From Actinomycetota bacterium (lineage in GTDB: Bacteria > Actinomycetota > Aquicultoria > Subteraquimicrobiales > UBA9087), in the NCBI GenBank assembly GCA_030019215.1, contig JASEEZ010000001.1, forward strand, positions 103,876-167,875: a stretch of DNA of 64,000 bases, given 5' to 3'. The notes beneath the pieces are model-generated. The model ran no database searches, was not told the origin of the DNA, and was given only the letters and a program-made list of their open reading frames with translations. Made by a program: the position numbers and the translations under genes. The first letter of the stretch is position 1. Every line of letters begins with the position of its first letter. Positions 41,862 through 49,863 of the stretch are shown here, in pieces.

Positions 41862-41933
41862 GCCTAACGACCAAGCTCACCTGCCGCTATGGAGCGCAGC
41901 GGAATAGCGGTCGGCTGGAGCTCCTTGTTAGGA
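41862..41933 (-). repeat. Integron attC-like site g
   Basis: Minus strand TCCTAAC...palindromic core...GTTAGGC. Confidence 0.75.
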
Positions 41934-41939
41934 GGCTTT

Positions 41940-42347
41940 CTATCCAATTTCGAATTGAACTGACTTGAATGCCTCTTCAAAGTAACGCTTCGGTCGATCT
42001 CTGCTGATAATGTACTCGACCAAGTCGAACAGGAACAAGATAAGGAAGAAGCCCGTGAAAAAACCCAGGATGAACCAAACCCACGGCCAGCCCCCTAGGG
42101 ATGAATCACCGTCGACCCGATAGGTCAGTTGATTCCCTTCTATCTTGATCTTGGCCTCAGCCTTGGTTATCGCTCGTTCCCAAATGGACTTGAGATTGCC
42201 CTTTACAGTGATGCCTGTAGGCGTGATCGTGATATTCTCGTCCTTGTAGTACTTGGCAAGACTGGTCTTGAGCAATTGGGCTATTGTGTCAACCGTTACG
42301 CCATCCTTCTTGATCTCGCATTTTCCGTACACTTCGAAGTTTGCCAT
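41940..42347 (-). CDS. Hypothetical cassette protein with a TM segment
   Basis: 135 aa; GGWPWVWFILGFFTGFFLILFLFDLVEYIIS. Confidence 0.6.
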   Translation of the reverse strand: MANFEVYGKCEIKKDGVTVDTIAQLLKTSLAKYYKDENITITPTGITVKGNLKSIWERAITKAEAKIKIEGNQLTYRVDGDSSLGGWPWVWFILGFFTGFFLILFLFDLVEYIISRDRPKRYFEEAFKSVQFEIG

Positions 42348-42357
42348 TTCTCTTGCC

Positions 42358-42377
42358 TCCTAACAATAATTAGGTAC
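42358..42377 (-). repeat. Degenerate or deleted attC remnant
   Basis: Minus strand GTACCTAATTATTGTTAGGA; core-like ends but no room for a hairpin. Confidence 0.35.
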
Positions 42378-42396
42378 GCATCATGGATGATTCACG

Positions 42397-43269
42397 CTAC
42401 GACTCGGGCTCTGGCGCCACACGCCACGAGGCAAGGCTGGCCCGTGCTTCCTCTTTGGTCTTGAGCCAGCCGTACTCGTGGATCGCCGGTGACCGCCTGA
42501 ATGTCTGAAGCATCTTCAGATTAAAGCCGAAGCGAAGGAAGAGTCTCCACTTCTTCCAACGGGTCAGGCGCTTGCCGCCCCCGCTCTTGAACGAGACCAC
42601 CCGAAACGCATCGTCATAGGCGAAGACTGCGCATGCGAGGTACAGCACCGGGATGAACATCGCTGACATCACGAATGGCAAGCCAAACGCGAAGAGTGCT
42701 TGGGTGTTCAGTAGTTGTTCGTAGTTCCTGACGGCTTGCCACACCACATAGCCGATCAACGCGAAGCCAACGAATGCCTGAACCCCGCTGAGCAGTCGGT
42801 GGGCTGGCTCAGCTCCCTCTTGGCGCTCTGTGACCGCGACAAGCATCACGAGAATGGTGATTCCGGGAACCACAAGGAGGAATTCGATCCAGAAGTTGAA
42901 CGGGAAGAGGTCGGACAGGAAGGCAAACAGGACCATGACCTCGAGATTCACTAGAACAGTCTTGAGGAAGAACCGCAGGTCATACGTTACGCCTTGGGTA
43001 GCCGCGCGGGACACCGAGCCGACGGCGCCGACCGCGAAGAAAGTCAGCGTGTCGTAGAGCATCGTCGAATCCCAGTATCCAATCCGCCAGAGCCACCAAA
43101 CCACGGCGACGTTGTAGGCGATGATGACTGTGAAGAGAGCTAGAAGCTTCGGCGAAAGAAGCGTCTTCAGTAATGACCCGATAGACGAACGAACGCCGTC
43201 CATGGTCAGTGCCCACACGATGAATATCGCGAGCCAAAGCACGATTGCGAGCTGGCGTGAGGTCAGCAC
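42397..43269 (-). CDS. Hypothetical multi-pass membrane protein (cassette)
   Basis: 290 aa with 5-6 hydrophobic segments. Confidence 0.65.
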   Translation of the reverse strand: MLTSRQLAIVLWLAIFIVWALTMDGVRSSIGSLLKTLLSPKLLALFTVIIAYNVAVVWWLWRIGYWDSTMLYDTLTFFAVGAVGSVSRAATQGVTYDLRFFLKTVLVNLEVMVLFAFLSDLFPFNFWIEFLLVVPGITILVMLVAVTERQEGAEPAHRLLSGVQAFVGFALIGYVVWQAVRNYEQLLNTQALFAFGLPFVMSAMFIPVLYLACAVFAYDDAFRVVSFKSGGGKRLTRWKKWRLFLRFGFNLKMLQTFRRSPAIHEYGWLKTKEEARASLASWRVAPEPES

Positions 43270-43351
43270 TACAGAACCCCCGTGCCGAATGATCGCTACC
43301 GCAACAGGATAGCGAGGTGCACTGACATCTCGCGGCCGGCACCAATGCTGT

Positions 43352-43409
43352 GCCTAACGGGCTGCTCAGCCGCAGCGTTTAAGCTGTCGGCTGGACTAGC
43401 GGGTTATGT
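43352..43409 (-). repeat. Integron attC-like site f
   Basis: Plus-strand GCCTAAC GGGCTGCTCAGCCGCAGCGTTTAAGCTGTCGGCTGGACTAGCGG GTTATGT. Confidence 0.75.
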
Positions 43410-43423
43410 GCTAAAAGATGGAA

Positions 43424-44179
43424 CTAATCAAGAATGACGAATTTCTTCAACAATCCTTGTTGTTCAACATCAGCTTGAATATCGTATCGAATAGCAGCAA
43501 TAAAAAATTTCGCTTTTCTTTGCCGACGGGAAATTACGTTCTTTCCCCATTTCGAGACCAATTTACTGCAGCCTAGAGTACCCATTGGGCCAATACCAGA
43601 AAGAACCAATACAGTTTTTTTAGCATCCCACGGCGATTCATGGCAAACTACTACACCTTCATTTCCAGAAGCAAATTGTTGCTCGTTCAAAACGAAAGCA
43701 TTATATCCTTCTCCCCAACGAAAATGGTCGTTTATGATTGGTTCCAACCGCCCGAAAATTTGACCCGAAATCATGTTAGAGGAGGGGCTTCCAAAGCAGA
43801 TAAGGTTATTCTCGAAGCTGAAATTGGGATCAGAATCATATGAAACAGTAAAAGTTTTTCGTAGGCTTCCCAAGGTATGCCCGAGCTCAACTTGCCCAAT
43901 CGCATCCCATGTTCCTGTTACCGGATAGCCACTGTGTATAAGTACTGCTGATCCATCAGACCTTGGTTTTAATAAAGGAGCTGCTCTTAGGACGCCACCA
44001 GGAGTTGGGACTTCTGTGCCTTCCTGAAGCGCATATAGATTGCTCGAAACTAAAGTAATTGGGCCTTTAAGTCTAGCGAGAGGATCCCGTTTTCTGAAAA
44101 GATTTACATGACTGGCTGCTGTGATCAATATAGGAGTAACATCAAATTCGATTTCTATATCATGATACCTTACAATCAT
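43424..44179 (-). CDS. Hypothetical protein, partner of the AbiTii gene in one cassette
   Basis: 251 aa; no family recognised; 31 bp from the upstream gene with no attC between. Confidence 0.6.
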   Translation of the reverse strand: MIVRYHDIEIEFDVTPILITAASHVNLFRKRDPLARLKGPITLVSSNLYALQEGTEVPTPGGVLRAAPLLKPRSDGSAVLIHSGYPVTGTWDAIGQVELGHTLGSLRKTFTVSYDSDPNFSFENNLICFGSPSSNMISGQIFGRLEPIINDHFRWGEGYNAFVLNEQQFASGNEGVVVCHESPWDAKKTVLVLSGIGPMGTLGCSKLVSKWGKNVISRRQRKAKFFIAAIRYDIQADVEQQGLLKKFVILD

Positions 44180-44210
44180 AATTTCCTCTCCCAGTTATGC
44201 GTTTCTCGAT

Positions 44211-45131
44211 TTATTTAAGGCCATAGTATTTCAATGCAGCTTCACTCAATACCTTTGTGGCTACAGTTACACCCATTTTCCACGTGCCTTGAGCGGCCTT
44301 CTTTAAATTTAATGCAATCCAATTTTTTGCTTTCTCGCCAAATGGCTCCTCGTTGCTTATCGGTTTTTCCTTTTCCATTATTTCGGCAATTTCAGTTGCA
44401 TCGGCTTTGGGCATGCCAGACTTTGCAAGATATTCTATTAGTGATTTGGTGTCTCCCTCGCCGACTGAAACGCTAATGGTAGACCCGTGCCCACCCGCGA
44501 CTGCGGTGGTTACGTTTCCATAAATAATCTGTTGGGAAATTTGTTGCACTCTATCTGAGTTTGTCTCTTGGGTTTTTTGGGCTCCGAAGGTCACGTGGGC
44601 TGCTGCGGGGATGGATTTCTCTAACTCAAGAGTAAGCTCAAGAATTCTGCTTCTTACCGCTTGTTGAATTTCAGACAGCGCAGTACGAGAAATTGAACCG
44701 CTAATATCATTACAGGCATAACCTTCATAGATCTTCCCTTGAAGCAACAGAATAAGGTTCGATGCATCTATTCCGAGGCTTCCTCCTTCCGCGCTGCTTT
44801 TTACAAGTTCATCAACGGCTGCGATGCTTTCTCTGATTTCATAGCGAGTCCAACTCTTACCAGCAAACTTTTCGATCAAATACGGCGGAATTGGAGCGTT
44901 CTTAATTCCTGAACCAAAAGGACCAGAAAACGTCCCTTTGTAGCTGACGCCGATTACGCGATAGGAAGGCACTTCTGCGTCTTTTGGGTACCCTTCTGAT
45001 TCATGTTTCACCCATTCTTCGAGCACATTGCTTCCGAGTCTTGCCGCAAGGAGACGAAGTTTCAAAAGAACGGAGCCGAGGTCGCACCCTTCTTGTACAA
45101 CAGACTCTTGAATTTGATGCAGTAAAGACAC
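44211..45131 (-). CDS. AbiTii-domain protein (cassette)
   Basis: N-terminal SLLHQIQESVVQEGCDLGSVLLKLRLLAARLGSNVLEEWVKHESEGYP resembles the AbiTii domain. Confidence 0.65.
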   Translation of the reverse strand: MSLLHQIQESVVQEGCDLGSVLLKLRLLAARLGSNVLEEWVKHESEGYPKDAEVPSYRVIGVSYKGTFSGPFGSGIKNAPIPPYLIEKFAGKSWTRYEIRESIAAVDELVKSSAEGGSLGIDASNLILLLQGKIYEGYACNDISGSISRTALSEIQQAVRSRILELTLELEKSIPAAAHVTFGAQKTQETNSDRVQQISQQIIYGNVTTAVAGGHGSTISVSVGEGDTKSLIEYLAKSGMPKADATEIAEIMEKEKPISNEEPFGEKAKNWIALNLKKAAQGTWKMGVTVATKVLSEAALKYYGLK

Positions 45132-45170
45132 GTCGGATTCTCCAAAGCAACGGCTCTATCTTCTGTTACG

Positions 45171-45229
45171 CATAACTCGGCGCTTGAGCGGCGCGGGAAC
45201 CGAGCCCGTCTCCAAGCGCCTGTTAGGCT
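45171..45229 (-). repeat. Integron attC-like site e
   Basis: Minus strand GCCTAACAGGCGCTTGGAGACGGGCTCGGTTCCCGCGCCGCTCAAGCGCCGAGTTATGC. Confidence 0.8.
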
Positions 45230-45231
45230 TG

Positions 45232-46095
45232 TTAATCTCTTAATAGCTCGGTGAATCTCTTATCGTAGAATCCTTTTGCTTCTTCCCAGTAACTTCCTAC
45301 TATAGTCCATATGTATTTTAGGTCTTGCTTAATCCCAAGGTTAGAAACCGCTTCAATTTCGGAAATAATGATAAGCAAATATAAAATAGACTTATACACA
45401 GCATCCGACTCAAATTTGCCAGGGTGCCAATGATTCTCTGGAAAACTGCTGAAAACAGTGGCTGACATTCCGCCCCATTGGAAGTGACTCAGCGCTGATT
45501 CCCAGCCATAGTGCCAGTCATAGAGTTCTTTGAGGAACAAGTGTCTGCTATCTGAGAAGATTCTATCTCTGAGCATTGTGGATGGAATAGGCCAATATGG
45601 AATATTTTCTCTGGGTGAATTGCGTTCACCATCAGATAGCTCATAGTTCTTCGCCGCAAATTCAAGCAGTTTTGCTTTATCGGCGAGATATCCATTCCAG
45701 TTTGGATCATTTCCATATTCTTGGACTTCTTTAGTGTATTCCTCCCACATCATCCTATATCCAGCTAGTGCATATGCCTTTGGGTATTTTCCAGGGTCTT
45801 CCGAAAAGGCCTCAATAACAAAAATCGAATCTAATAGAGAGCGGTTCAATATATGCGCTTGAGCAGGATACTTTGGGTCCTCGGCAACGAGTTTGCGAAT
45901 GGCTTTATAGGTTTGATAACAGCCTGCAACGATCTTTTGGGCTAAAAAATCAAATTCGGAAAATTGTGCCCCACCCTTTCTCTCAAGAGTATCAATTGTT
46001 CTTTGCACCAGTTTTTCTAATGGCTCATTGACCACCTTGAAATCCAAAGGCTCTGGGTCGGTCGCCCAAGAGGGTTTTGTTATCCTATCGACCAT
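45232..46095 (-). CDS. DUF5677-like protein (cassette)
   Basis: 287 aa; AHILNRSLLDSIFVIEAFSEDPGKYPKAYALAGYRM. Confidence 0.5.
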   Translation of the reverse strand: MVDRITKPSWATDPEPLDFKVVNEPLEKLVQRTIDTLERKGGAQFSEFDFLAQKIVAGCYQTYKAIRKLVAEDPKYPAQAHILNRSLLDSIFVIEAFSEDPGKYPKAYALAGYRMMWEEYTKEVQEYGNDPNWNGYLADKAKLLEFAAKNYELSDGERNSPRENIPYWPIPSTMLRDRIFSDSRHLFLKELYDWHYGWESALSHFQWGGMSATVFSSFPENHWHPGKFESDAVYKSILYLLIIISEIEAVSNLGIKQDLKYIWTIVGSYWEEAKGFYDKRFTELLRD

Positions 46096-46111
46096 TTCAA
46101 ATATCCTTCCG

Positions 46112-46171
46112 GCCTAACGGCATGCGTAACCGGCGGAGCGAAGCGGAGTCCGGTTGACGCAAATGTTGGAC
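46112..46171 (-). repeat. Integron attC-like site d
   Basis: Plus strand GCCTAAC GGCATGCGTAACCGGCGGAGCGAAGCGGAGTCCGGTTGACGCAAAT GTTGGAC; strong stem. Confidence 0.85.
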
Positions 46172-46198
46172 ACATCACTGCTTGTGCGATCCATCGGC

Positions 46199-47008
46199 TC
46201 AGAACACCGTCTTTGTAATCTTCATAACCCCATCCACCAAATCATTAACCTGCTCCGCCTTGGGTTCTGATTTCTTACTGTGATCGCATAGATTTCTGAT
46301 GTCCGCTAAATGCTGTACAAAGCGCCATTGCGGAATATCGATGACGTTAGCTTCCTTCAATTTGTCGTTAAGATCGGCTATGCCCGGCGCTTTCTTTGTC
46401 ACCTTCAACCCATGGTTTTCACAGACCTGCGTGAGGTGACGCTCTAGTACAACGCCTGCCAATGCGCCCGCTCCTCGCATGAATTTGTGCTTTGCTAATT
46501 CCTTTGCCGCATCGAGTTCCGAGTCAAAGAGATCCGCTTGGACCAGCTGACGTATGTCAAAGAGAGAGCTCTCAAATCGCGCTTTGACTGACTTCAGAAT
46601 GGCCAATTGTTGTCTGAAATGTGGGATTGCGGCGTCAGGTCCAGCGACCTTCTCTTTTTCCCAACCGCGGGTTATGCTTAAACCTTGGAGGTAGTCCTCT
46701 ATTCTATAGTTCTCGTACGTAATGTCTTTCCGTGGTTTAGGCTTCTCGTAAAGGCGGACAAAGTCAGAAAGACGGTCTGGCAACAACTGTTTGACTAATG
46801 CTTTCGCCTCCGAGTACCAGGACTGGTATTCCCCTGGAAATGATGGCAGAACTTTAATTATGTCGGCAGCCTCGGCCCCGAATTGCTTTTTAATGCTACT
46901 GTCCATCTCGTCAGGAAAGCACTCCCTTTGCATTGCCATATGCAGCATGGAGCCCTTTTCAATCAGAGAATCAAGTTCCTTCTTATATCGATCTATGTTT
47001 GGTAGCAT
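46199..47008 (-). CDS. Hypothetical cassette protein with DUF4145/HEPN-like C-terminus
   Basis: 269 aa; VVLERHLTQVCENHG...LADIRNLCDHSKKSEPKAEQVNDLVDGVMKITKTVF. Confidence 0.5.
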   Translation of the reverse strand: MLPNIDRYKKELDSLIEKGSMLHMAMQRECFPDEMDSSIKKQFGAEAADIIKVLPSFPGEYQSWYSEAKALVKQLLPDRLSDFVRLYEKPKPRKDITYENYRIEDYLQGLSITRGWEKEKVAGPDAAIPHFRQQLAILKSVKARFESSLFDIRQLVQADLFDSELDAAKELAKHKFMRGAGALAGVVLERHLTQVCENHGLKVTKKAPGIADLNDKLKEANVIDIPQWRFVQHLADIRNLCDHSKKSEPKAEQVNDLVDGVMKITKTVF

Positions 47009-47052
47009 TCCATCCTCTTAATATGTCCAGTTAATATGTCCAGAAATTTGAG

Positions 47053-47136
47053 GTCCAACGAAAAGGGTGAGGCGGCGGGCACTCACTCTAAAATGAGGCA
47101 GGGCTATTCACGCTCGCCTCGACCCACTTGTTAGAC
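47053..47136 (-). repeat. Integron attC-like site c
   Basis: Plus strand GTCCAAC...GAGGCGGCGGGC...CTCGCCTCGACCCACTT GTTAGAC. Confidence 0.75.
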
Positions 47137-47682
47137 CGGTTTTCTTGTTTTCCTGGTTTCGGGCGAGATTCCTGGTTTCAGGGTCACGCGTGGTAACGCC
47201 TCACTACCAACCCTTTGAATGTGAACGACAAATTGACGAGATGATGTTCCTTCGCAGGAGGTATTACCCGGAAGGTTGCTTTTGTTTTCCTTCAACAACC
47301 AGGCGATGAGGTCATTCTCGATCCGCTCAATATCACGTTCCCATATTCGATCGAGGACTTTCCGAAGGTCCATCACCCACACCTGGATCCTGGCGTTGAT
47401 CGCTCGAACCAAGCCGCGAAATGGGCCAGTGCTCCAATGCTCCCCGAGTCTTATGCTGATGTCGTTGGCCCATTTGTCTTGTTCCCCCGGTTTGATTCCG
47501 CCGGCCTTTCCAAGGTAAAGGGGTAAGCCATTTTCTTCGAGTACAAATGCATAAAGGCCAGCGGCGCCAATGGCCCTGCTGAAAGTCAATTTCTCATCAA
47601 GGAAACCCAAAAATTCCCAACTAGGTTGAACCTCGCGATCAAGTATCACACCGTGCAATGGGTTGAGTCTTTCACTGGACAT
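47131..47682 (-). CDS. Hypothetical cassette protein, weakly GIY-YIG-like
   Basis: 183 aa; AAGLYAFVLEENGLPLYLGKAGG motif; 3' end overlaps attC c. Confidence 0.5.
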   Translation of the reverse strand: MSSERLNPLHGVILDREVQPSWEFLGFLDEKLTFSRAIGAAGLYAFVLEENGLPLYLGKAGGIKPGEQDKWANDISIRLGEHWSTGPFRGLVRAINARIQVWVMDLRKVLDRIWERDIERIENDLIAWLLKENKSNLPGNTSCEGTSSRQFVVHIQRVGSEALPRVTLKPGISPETRKTRKPV

Positions 47683-47698
47683 TGTTCGTTTCTCTTTG

Positions 47699-47766
47699 GT
47701 CTAACGCTGGAACTCACCCGACCAAAAAGCGCCAGCTTTTTGGTCGGGTGCAGTGATTGGTTAGAC
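47699..47766 (-). repeat. Integron attC-like site b
   Basis: Plus strand GTCTAAC GCTGGAACTCACCCGACCAAAAAGCGCCAGCTTTTTGGTCGGGTGCAGTGATTG GTTAGAC; long imperfect stem. Confidence 0.88.
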
Positions 47767-47796
47767 TGTGTGAGAGCCAAAAGCGATTAATGCTGA

Positions 47797-48039
47797 TTAC
47801 TCTGTGCCGAACTCGCGATTCCAAATTTCTTCCATATGTTTCCATTGGTCCTTAGGTATGACTTGCGGCTTGCCGAAGAAGCCGCCCGAGAATGGCCCGA
47901 TGGATAAGCCAGCTCCACATTTCTTGCATTTACGAATGGCTTTCCCTTGAAACTGACCCCGGACTTCGAAAGCTCCGCTGTCACCTATTAGCGCTTCGCC
48001 CATATTTCCGCAGGAAGGGCACACAATCTGTTTTGACAT
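47797..48039 (-). CDS. Small protein with two CxxC pairs (zinc-ribbon-like), cassette
   Basis: MSKQIVCPSCGNMGEALIGDS...IRKCKKCGAGLS. Confidence 0.65.
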   Translation of the reverse strand: MSKQIVCPSCGNMGEALIGDSGAFEVRGQFQGKAIRKCKKCGAGLSIGPFSGGFFGKPQVIPKDQWKHMEEIWNREFGTE

Positions 48040-48065
48040 GCATATTCCTCCTCTTTACACGGGTG

Positions 48066-48263
48066 TCAAAAAATAAGCAAAAGAATTCCTATCGCGAGAA
48101 TAACCCATGAAGCTATGTTCAAGAACGAGACCCACGATGGCACCAAACCTGTTCCTGCTGTGTGCTCGAGTAGTTGAGAAGGTAAGCCGCTCCTGTTAAA
48201 CTTTTGTCTGGTTAGGATCGCCGACAGAATGATACCAACGACGCCAATAACAATTAAAACCAT
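48066..48263 (-). CDS. Small membrane protein, first gene of a two-gene cassette
   Basis: 65 aa; two hydrophobic segments; preceded by GGAGGTGAAATATG. Confidence 0.6.
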   Translation of the reverse strand: MVLIVIGVVGIILSAILTRQKFNRSGLPSQLLEHTAGTGLVPSWVSFLNIASWVILAIGILLLIF

Positions 48264-48278
48264 ATTTCACCTCCATCA

Positions 48279-48338
48279 GTCTAACGCCCAGCATCAGCGG
48301 CGGCGCGAAGCGCCGTCCGCTGCAACCGGTTGTTAGCT
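48279..48338 (-). repeat. Integron attC-like site a
   Basis: Plus strand GTCTAAC GCCCAGCATCAGCGGCGGCGCGAAGCGCCGTCCGCTGCAACCGGTT GTTAGCT. Confidence 0.88.
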
Positions 48339-48804: not shown

Positions 48805-49863
48805 TCAAAGCCCGTCGATCGGGCTTTGAACACCCTGGCCACCCTTGCTCAATACATGCGTGTAAACCATAGTCGTGCTAACGTCCTTGTGTCCCATAAG
48901 TTCTTGGATGGTTCGAATGTCGTAGCCAACTTCAAGCAGGTGTGTCGCAAATGAATGCCGGAAGGTGTGACACCCAACGTGCTTGACGACATTGGTCTTG
49001 TTAACTGCCTCCTTGACAGCTCGCTGGAGAATGGTTTCATGAGTATGATGACGACCTTCTTCAGCAGTCTTTCTGTTCTTCCACCGCTTCTCCTGCGGAA
49101 ATACCCACTGCCAGCACCAGTCGGCGGGCGCGTTGGGATACTTGCGATCCAGAGCCATCGGCATCTGAACCCGCCCCCAACCGGCGTCCAGATCCTTCTT
49201 GTGAATTGCTTTGACTTTCCGCAAGTGGTCATTGAGCGGCGACCTCAGTGACTCGGGGAGCATTGTGATTCGATCCTTGGCACCCTTCCCGTCACGAACC
49301 GTGATTTCATTGCGGGAGAAATCAATATCCTGAACTCGCAGGCGTAAACACTCCATGAGCCGCAGACCTGCACCATACATGAGCGAGGCCATGAGCCATT
49401 TGTCTCCGTTTAGCTGGCTGAGAACAGACTTCACCTCGTCTCGCGTCATTACCACGGGTAGACGTTTGGGCTTGCGGGCGCGGATCACGTTGCCAAGATC
49501 GCCGATGTCGCGACCGATCGCATGGCGATAGAGGAACAATAGCGCACTAAGGGCTTGATTCTGGGTTGAAGCACTGACCTTCTCCTTGACTGCCAGATGT
49601 GTCAAGAAAGCGTTGATTTCGGGTTCAGCCATCTCTTCTGGATGGCGCAGATTGTGGAAATGAATAAACCGCTTGACCCAAGAGCAATAGGTTTGTTCAG
49701 TCCGTCGACTGTAATGGCGGGAACGTAGAGCTTCGCGAAGGCGATCTAAGAGTTTTGGCCGCCTGCCAGCTGTTACCGGCTGTCGCTCATCTGCTACCGA
49801 AGAAATGGGTATAAGTCTTGCCCCTTTTGGTTGCATGATTCTTCCCCCTGCAGAGCAGTTCAA
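48805..49863 (-). CDS. intI: Integron integrase (IntI-type tyrosine recombinase)
   Basis: YSRRTEQTYCSWVKRFIHFHNLRHPEEM; YGAGLRLMECLRLRVQDIDF; IntI-specific insertion APADWCWQWVFPQEKRWKNRKTAEEGRHHTHETILQRAVKEAV; HTFRHSFATHLLEVGYDIRTIQELMGHKDVSTTMVYTHV. Confidence 0.93.
   Translation of the reverse strand: MNCSAGGRIMQPKGARLIPISSVADERQPVTAGRRPKLLDRLREALRSRHYSRRTEQTYCSWVKRFIHFHNLRHPEEMAEPEINAFLTHLAVKEKVSASTQNQALSALLFLYRHAIGRDIGDLGNVIRARKPKRLPVVMTRDEVKSVLSQLNGDKWLMASLMYGAGLRLMECLRLRVQDIDFSRNEITVRDGKGAKDRITMLPESLRSPLNDHLRKVKAIHKKDLDAGWGRVQMPMALDRKYPNAPADWCWQWVFPQEKRWKNRKTAEEGRHHTHETILQRAVKEAVNKTNVVKHVGCHTFRHSFATHLLEVGYDIRTIQELMGHKDVSTTMVYTHVLSKGGQGVQSPIDGL

Follow-up and report, generated by a model that had tools for sequence, protein, structure and literature searches.

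The 64,000-nucleotide stretch of Actinomycetota DNA analysed here (the window) carries an integron in which two genes share a single cassette. The first (ORF1) encodes a genuine AbiTii protein and the second (ORF2) encodes an orphan. How did these genes come to lie together? The likely answer is that this is a fused integron cassette, in which a solitary, horizontally acquired AbiTii gene was joined to the cassette of the orphan by near-total loss of the AbiTii attC site. This reading draws on the identity of the AbiTii protein, the attC sites on both flanks, the single-gene AbiTii-attC cassettes found in other bacteria, an attC-type box in the gap between the two genes, and the absence of ORF2 from the AbiTii loci examined.

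The integron lies on the minus strand of the window and consists of the gene for the integron integrase, IntI, followed by cassette genes in the same direction with their attC sites (Table 1). Integrase and cassettes (41862-48338) are co-directional, and the 3' end of the integrase gene faces the array, an inverted arrangement rather than the usual divergent one. Inverted integrase orientation is known from Treponema and a few other bacteria. All seven attC sites, including the two that flank the pair, come from folding-based scans. With 0 to 6 hits per two-strand scan in shuffled DNA, no site is significant by itself; the seven sites, located at gene ends beside an integron integrase, are jointly significant. 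As the first-pass annotation had described, the two ORFs lie 31 bp apart between attC e and attC f, an arrangement that makes them an integron gene cassette and supports the proposal that they are mobile and would move as one unit.

Table 1. Features of the integron in the window, and attC sites of related AbiTii cassettes
Feature	Location	Strand	Remarks
IntI integron integrase	48805..49863	(-)	TIGR02249, 481 bits (cut-off 265), E=1e-144
attC	48279-48338		array; folding-based scan
attC	47699-47766		array; folding-based scan
attC	47053-47136		array; folding-based scan
attC	46112-46171		array; folding-based scan
attC e, 59 bp	45170..45228	(-)	site of the preceding cassette; upstream boundary of the two-gene cassette
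AbiTii gene (ORF1), 306 aa, GTG start	44211..45131	(-)	Pfam and PADLOC profiles
Intergenic gap, 31 bp	44180..44210	(-)	probable attC remnant GCATAAC (44194-44200), then Shine-Dalgarno GGGAGAGG of ORF2
ORF2, 251 aa, orphan	43424..44179	(-)	open frame statistics, own ribosome-binding site
attC f, 58 bp	43352..43409	(-)	the two-gene cassette's own site; starts 14 bp after the ORF2 stop
attC	41862-41933		array; folding-based scan
attC right after AbiTii stop	Marinobacter L034, 10140-10213		opens with GCATAAC
attC right after AbiTii stop	Halomonas L014, 4923-4994		opens with GAATAAC
attC right after AbiTii stop	G565/L033, 7718-7789		opens with GCATAAC

The cassette that follows the AbiTii-ORF2 pair (41862-43409) likewise contains two ORFs, at 42397-43269 and at 41940-42347. 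Strong membrane helices are present in each, and the cassette is possibly a second fused or two-gene one. No convincing family match was found for the first of these ORFs, and the second was scanned against PADLOC only. The cassette protein encoded at 47131-47682 has a GIY-YIG-like motif (GLYAFVLEENGLPLYLGKA) with no Pfam call and is possibly a small nuclease, and the cassette gene at 45232-46095 contains a DUF5677 domain (33 bits, cut-off 27).

ORF1 is the sole AbiTii in its genome. It matches the Pfam AbiTii profile PF18864 over profile positions 1-184 of 189 (171.5 bits, cut-off 27.6, E=3.1e-50) and the PADLOC AbiTii profile at 2.2e-40, and the AbiTii-like N terminus noticed in the first pass is in this way confirmed; a failure to match the profile, which the first-pass annotation had named as a ground for refutation, did not occur. 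The domain occupies residues 1-190 and, in alignments, contains the invariant residues W40, E44, G47, Y48, Y57, and R58. One glutamate is described as highly conserved among AbiTii domains (Anantharaman et al. 2013, PMC3710099); E44, invariant in 12/12 sequences of one alignment (A3) and 8/8 of another (A2), appears to be the residue meant. In an AlphaFold2 model built from 12 sequences, the mean pLDDT is 70 and reaches about 85 over residues 40-110 and 120-160. The model shows an alpha+beta domain of fair confidence over residues 1-173, a disordered, Gly-rich linker over about residues 174-220 (the low-confidence Gly-rich part being at about 205-218), and a C-terminal region of four helices at about residues 228-302. 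The full domain, its predicted alpha+beta fold, its N-terminal position, and the variability of what follows it are all shared with known AbiTii domain proteins, including lactococcal AbiTii.

What is the C-terminal part? It had been described initially as a hydrophobic and Gly-rich segment. The Gly-rich linker and the helices after it are borne out, but none of the helices is of membrane grade, the maximum 19-residue Kyte-Doolittle mean in ORF1 being 1.04. A plain transmembrane effector was accordingly rejected, the helices being insufficiently hydrophobic. A HEPN RNase was rejected as well: residues 225-306 have no HEPN family match in Pfam and no histidine conserved among relatives, and because of the missing histidine this part is not the HEPN RNase domain that other AbiTii proteins carry. 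ORF1 differs in this respect from the AbiTii-HEPN fusions c2405 and Ymh (PMC3710099), its C-terminal part being neither. The helical region is common to other long AbiTii proteins and to phrog_16090, a phage family of unknown function that matches residues 201-305. A Foldseek search with the AbiTii model, a check proposed in the first-pass annotation, gave no match at E<=0.001, either in PDB or among viral models, and for this reason no mechanism can be read from the structure.

Full-length relatives of the AbiTii protein are widely scattered. The closest are in Marinobacter (74% identity) and in Halomonas and G565 (72-73%), followed by those on chromosomes and conjugative plasmids of Enterobacterales (66-72%), the Synechococcus plasmid pANL (59%), Methylosinus (52%), and many others (24-40%). 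The best match within the same phylum, in a sample of 246 other genomes, is only 34% identical, so the gene was most likely acquired horizontally. On Enterobacter and Klebsiella plasmids (L003 and L012), a 69%-identical AbiTii gene lies downstream of, and co-directional with, a gene pair for an AAA-ATPase and an ATP-dependent helicase; these genes may form a small defence island carried by conjugative or mobilizable plasmids.

ORF2, by comparison with known proteins, stands alone. It is nevertheless a real gene: none of 20,000 composition shuffles leaves its frame of 251 codons open, its codon positions are biased (GC1/2/3 = 52/41/33), and it has a ribosome-binding site, GGGAGAGG-AAATT-ATG, with the Shine-Dalgarno sequence 5 nt before the ATG. 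No match to it was found in Pfam (up to E=10), NCBIfam, PADLOC, PHROGs, or PDB, and no relative among plasmids and phages by tblastn. A pattern scan, which requires exact 8-residue matches and detects close relatives only, found none in IMG/VR or GTDB genome contigs. Nor was there one in 397 genomes of its own phylum, 12 AbiTii-bearing genomes, 321 genomes of the Marinobacter class, or 249 of the Methylosinus phylum; these samples overlap, and an empty result without a positive control is weak. A faint match in L030 (E=0.014) was rejected since it lies antisense to ordinary Rhizobium genes. Single-sequence AlphaFold2 gave an unusable fold (pLDDT 30).

Do AbiTii genes elsewhere travel with a relative of ORF2? 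The first-pass annotation had suggested a two-component abortive-infection system, in which ORF2 would serve as sensor, effector, or antitoxin with AbiTii, like the lactococcal pair abiTi and abiTii. AbiTii loci on plasmids (L003-L007, L009-L012, L036, and L037), on a viral contig (L008), and in genomes (L013-L024, L026-L029, and L032-L034) were compared by tblastn with ORF2, by annotation, or by both. None of about 25 has an ORF2 relative, including those whose full-length AbiTii is 66-74% identical. The first-pass annotation had named such an absence as what would refute its proposal, and the result thus goes against a pair. In unrelated contexts, AbiTii is solitary on plasmids of Enterobacter, Klebsiella, Serratia, and Citrobacter, on Synechococcus pANL, in Agrobacterium, Burkholderia, Shewanella, Acinetobacter, and Lactococcus, and at 12 further chromosomal or contig loci. 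Most enterobacterial copies have a terminator-like hairpin (GGGCCGC...GCGGCC) straight 3' of the AbiTii stop and therefore look like transcription units of their own.

AbiTii proteins can nevertheless have partners, as two cases indicate. Canonical lactococcal AbiT is bicistronic, consisting of abiTi and abiTii (PMC3985639), and on the Enterococcus faecium plasmid pDY32-optrA (L037, 2396-3593) a short AbiTii of 208 aa, with no C-terminal region, overlaps a downstream gene whose product has an apparent N-terminal membrane helix. The Enterococcus pair is a more convincing AbiTii two-gene unit than the pair in the window. These precedents, together with the operon-like spacing and the shared cassette, speak for a two-component system. 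The closest relatives of the AbiTii protein, however, are encoded in single-gene cassettes or as single genes, and ORF2 matches none of the second genes compared. ORF1 also already has the C-terminal region that the short form is without; the long form seems to carry its own C-terminal part in place of a partner. The resemblance to lactococcal AbiT is that an AbiTii gene has a neighbour, but here the neighbour is downstream, encodes 251 aa, is without a match in PADLOC, Pfam, or NCBIfam, and shows no conservation beside AbiTii; it is by position, profiles, and this non-conservation that ORF2 would be set apart. Metagenome collections lay outside the search, which may therefore have overlooked a pair maintained in uncultured relatives. 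Taken on this evidence, a true two-component system is unlikely.

If the two genes did not arise as a pair, what preceded the present cassette? In three genomes of gammaproteobacterial type (Marinobacter, Halomonas, and G565), the AbiTii gene is a single-gene cassette with its own attC, which starts 4-5 nt after the stop codon. The G565 cassette adjoins an integron-integrase fragment that is 44% identical to the IntI of the window. In the window, the AbiTii stop is followed by TAA-ATCGAGAAAC-GCATAAC-TGGGAGAGGAAATT-ATG. GCATAAC lies 10 nt after the stop and has no matching 3' half, the rest of the attC being gone. Gap shuffling gives this heptamer a probability of 0.0019, and it is found in 0.0008 of 32-nt stretches on the same strand. 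With AbiTii single-gene and attC-bearing elsewhere, and only the GCATAAC box remaining in the gap, the cassette is best read as fused. A comparable case is the fused cassette blaGES-1/aacA4 (PMC4670013), which has two complete ORFs and a first attC that is lost or truncated. The likeness extends to the Shine-Dalgarno sequence before the second ORF; the difference is that the first gene here is a phage-defence candidate and not an antibiotic-resistance gene.

Several points weigh against a fused cassette. (i) The remnant is a single heptamer, and the broader R'' consensus, RYHYAAC, is expected in 2.3% of shuffled gaps. (ii) ORF2 has its own strong ribosome-binding site and is tightly spaced from AbiTii, as in a selected operon. 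(iii) A single-gene ancestor cassette of ORF2 was not found in these searches. Could the GCATAAC match be a coincidence, and could ORF2 have arrived in the AbiTii cassette through illegitimate insertion? The remnant measures just 7 bp and is offset by 5-6 nt from its position in the relatives, and its null probability is 0.002-0.02. Against this, the AbiTii attC of two independent relatives opens with exactly GCATAAC, in almost the same position, and a full attC follows ORF2 by 14 bp, as expected of a cassette gene. We regard such an insertion as very improbable.

In the fused-cassette scenario, the AbiTii cassette would have lost nearly its whole attC by deletion, leaving only the GCATAAC box, and would have become joined to the orphan cassette downstream, whose attC f was retained. 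Fusion by IntI itself was considered, but the 31-bp gap retains no recognisable R' junction. A promoter upstream or in the array would now drive a joint transcript of the two genes, which would also be excised together. A search across both genes found neither promoter nor terminator on the minus strand, and expression should for that reason depend on a promoter upstream.

From its domain architecture, the AbiTii protein is a candidate abortive-infection protein that most likely works alone. The N-terminal domain may sense, bind, or respond to a product of the phage, and the C-terminal helices, together with the linker, may be a built-in effector or oligomerisation part that executes the block. 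ORF2 is probably a passenger, co-transcribed and functionally independent, though a helper or control role is conceivable. One speculation is that the fusion has been selected: ORF2 would then found a new family of proteins, acting to regulate, trigger, or enhance this AbiTii, and the pair would form a new two-gene defence operon. We consider this quite unlikely; if true, it would be an example of operon birth by attC loss inside an integron.

Phage-defence cassettes of integrons have been described (Darracq et al.; Kieffer et al. 2025, as reviewed in PMC12409362), and the present setting is therefore of a familiar kind. The case in the window resembles them in that a small gene of defence type travels in an integron cassette; AbiTii, by contrast, goes without mention in the passages of that review drawn on here. 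As an example of a defence gene in what is probably a fused cassette, it is ordinary but clean, and it extends the set of phage-defence genes found in integrons by an AbiTii protein. Elsewhere, the same type of protein is encoded in single-gene cassettes of other bacteria, on conjugative plasmids of enterobacteria, and on the plasmid of a cyanobacterium. The cassette also illustrates, in readable form, that a defence gene can seem to be half of a two-component system when cassette fusion has placed an unrelated gene beside it, a point of importance for guilt-by-association searches in integrons.
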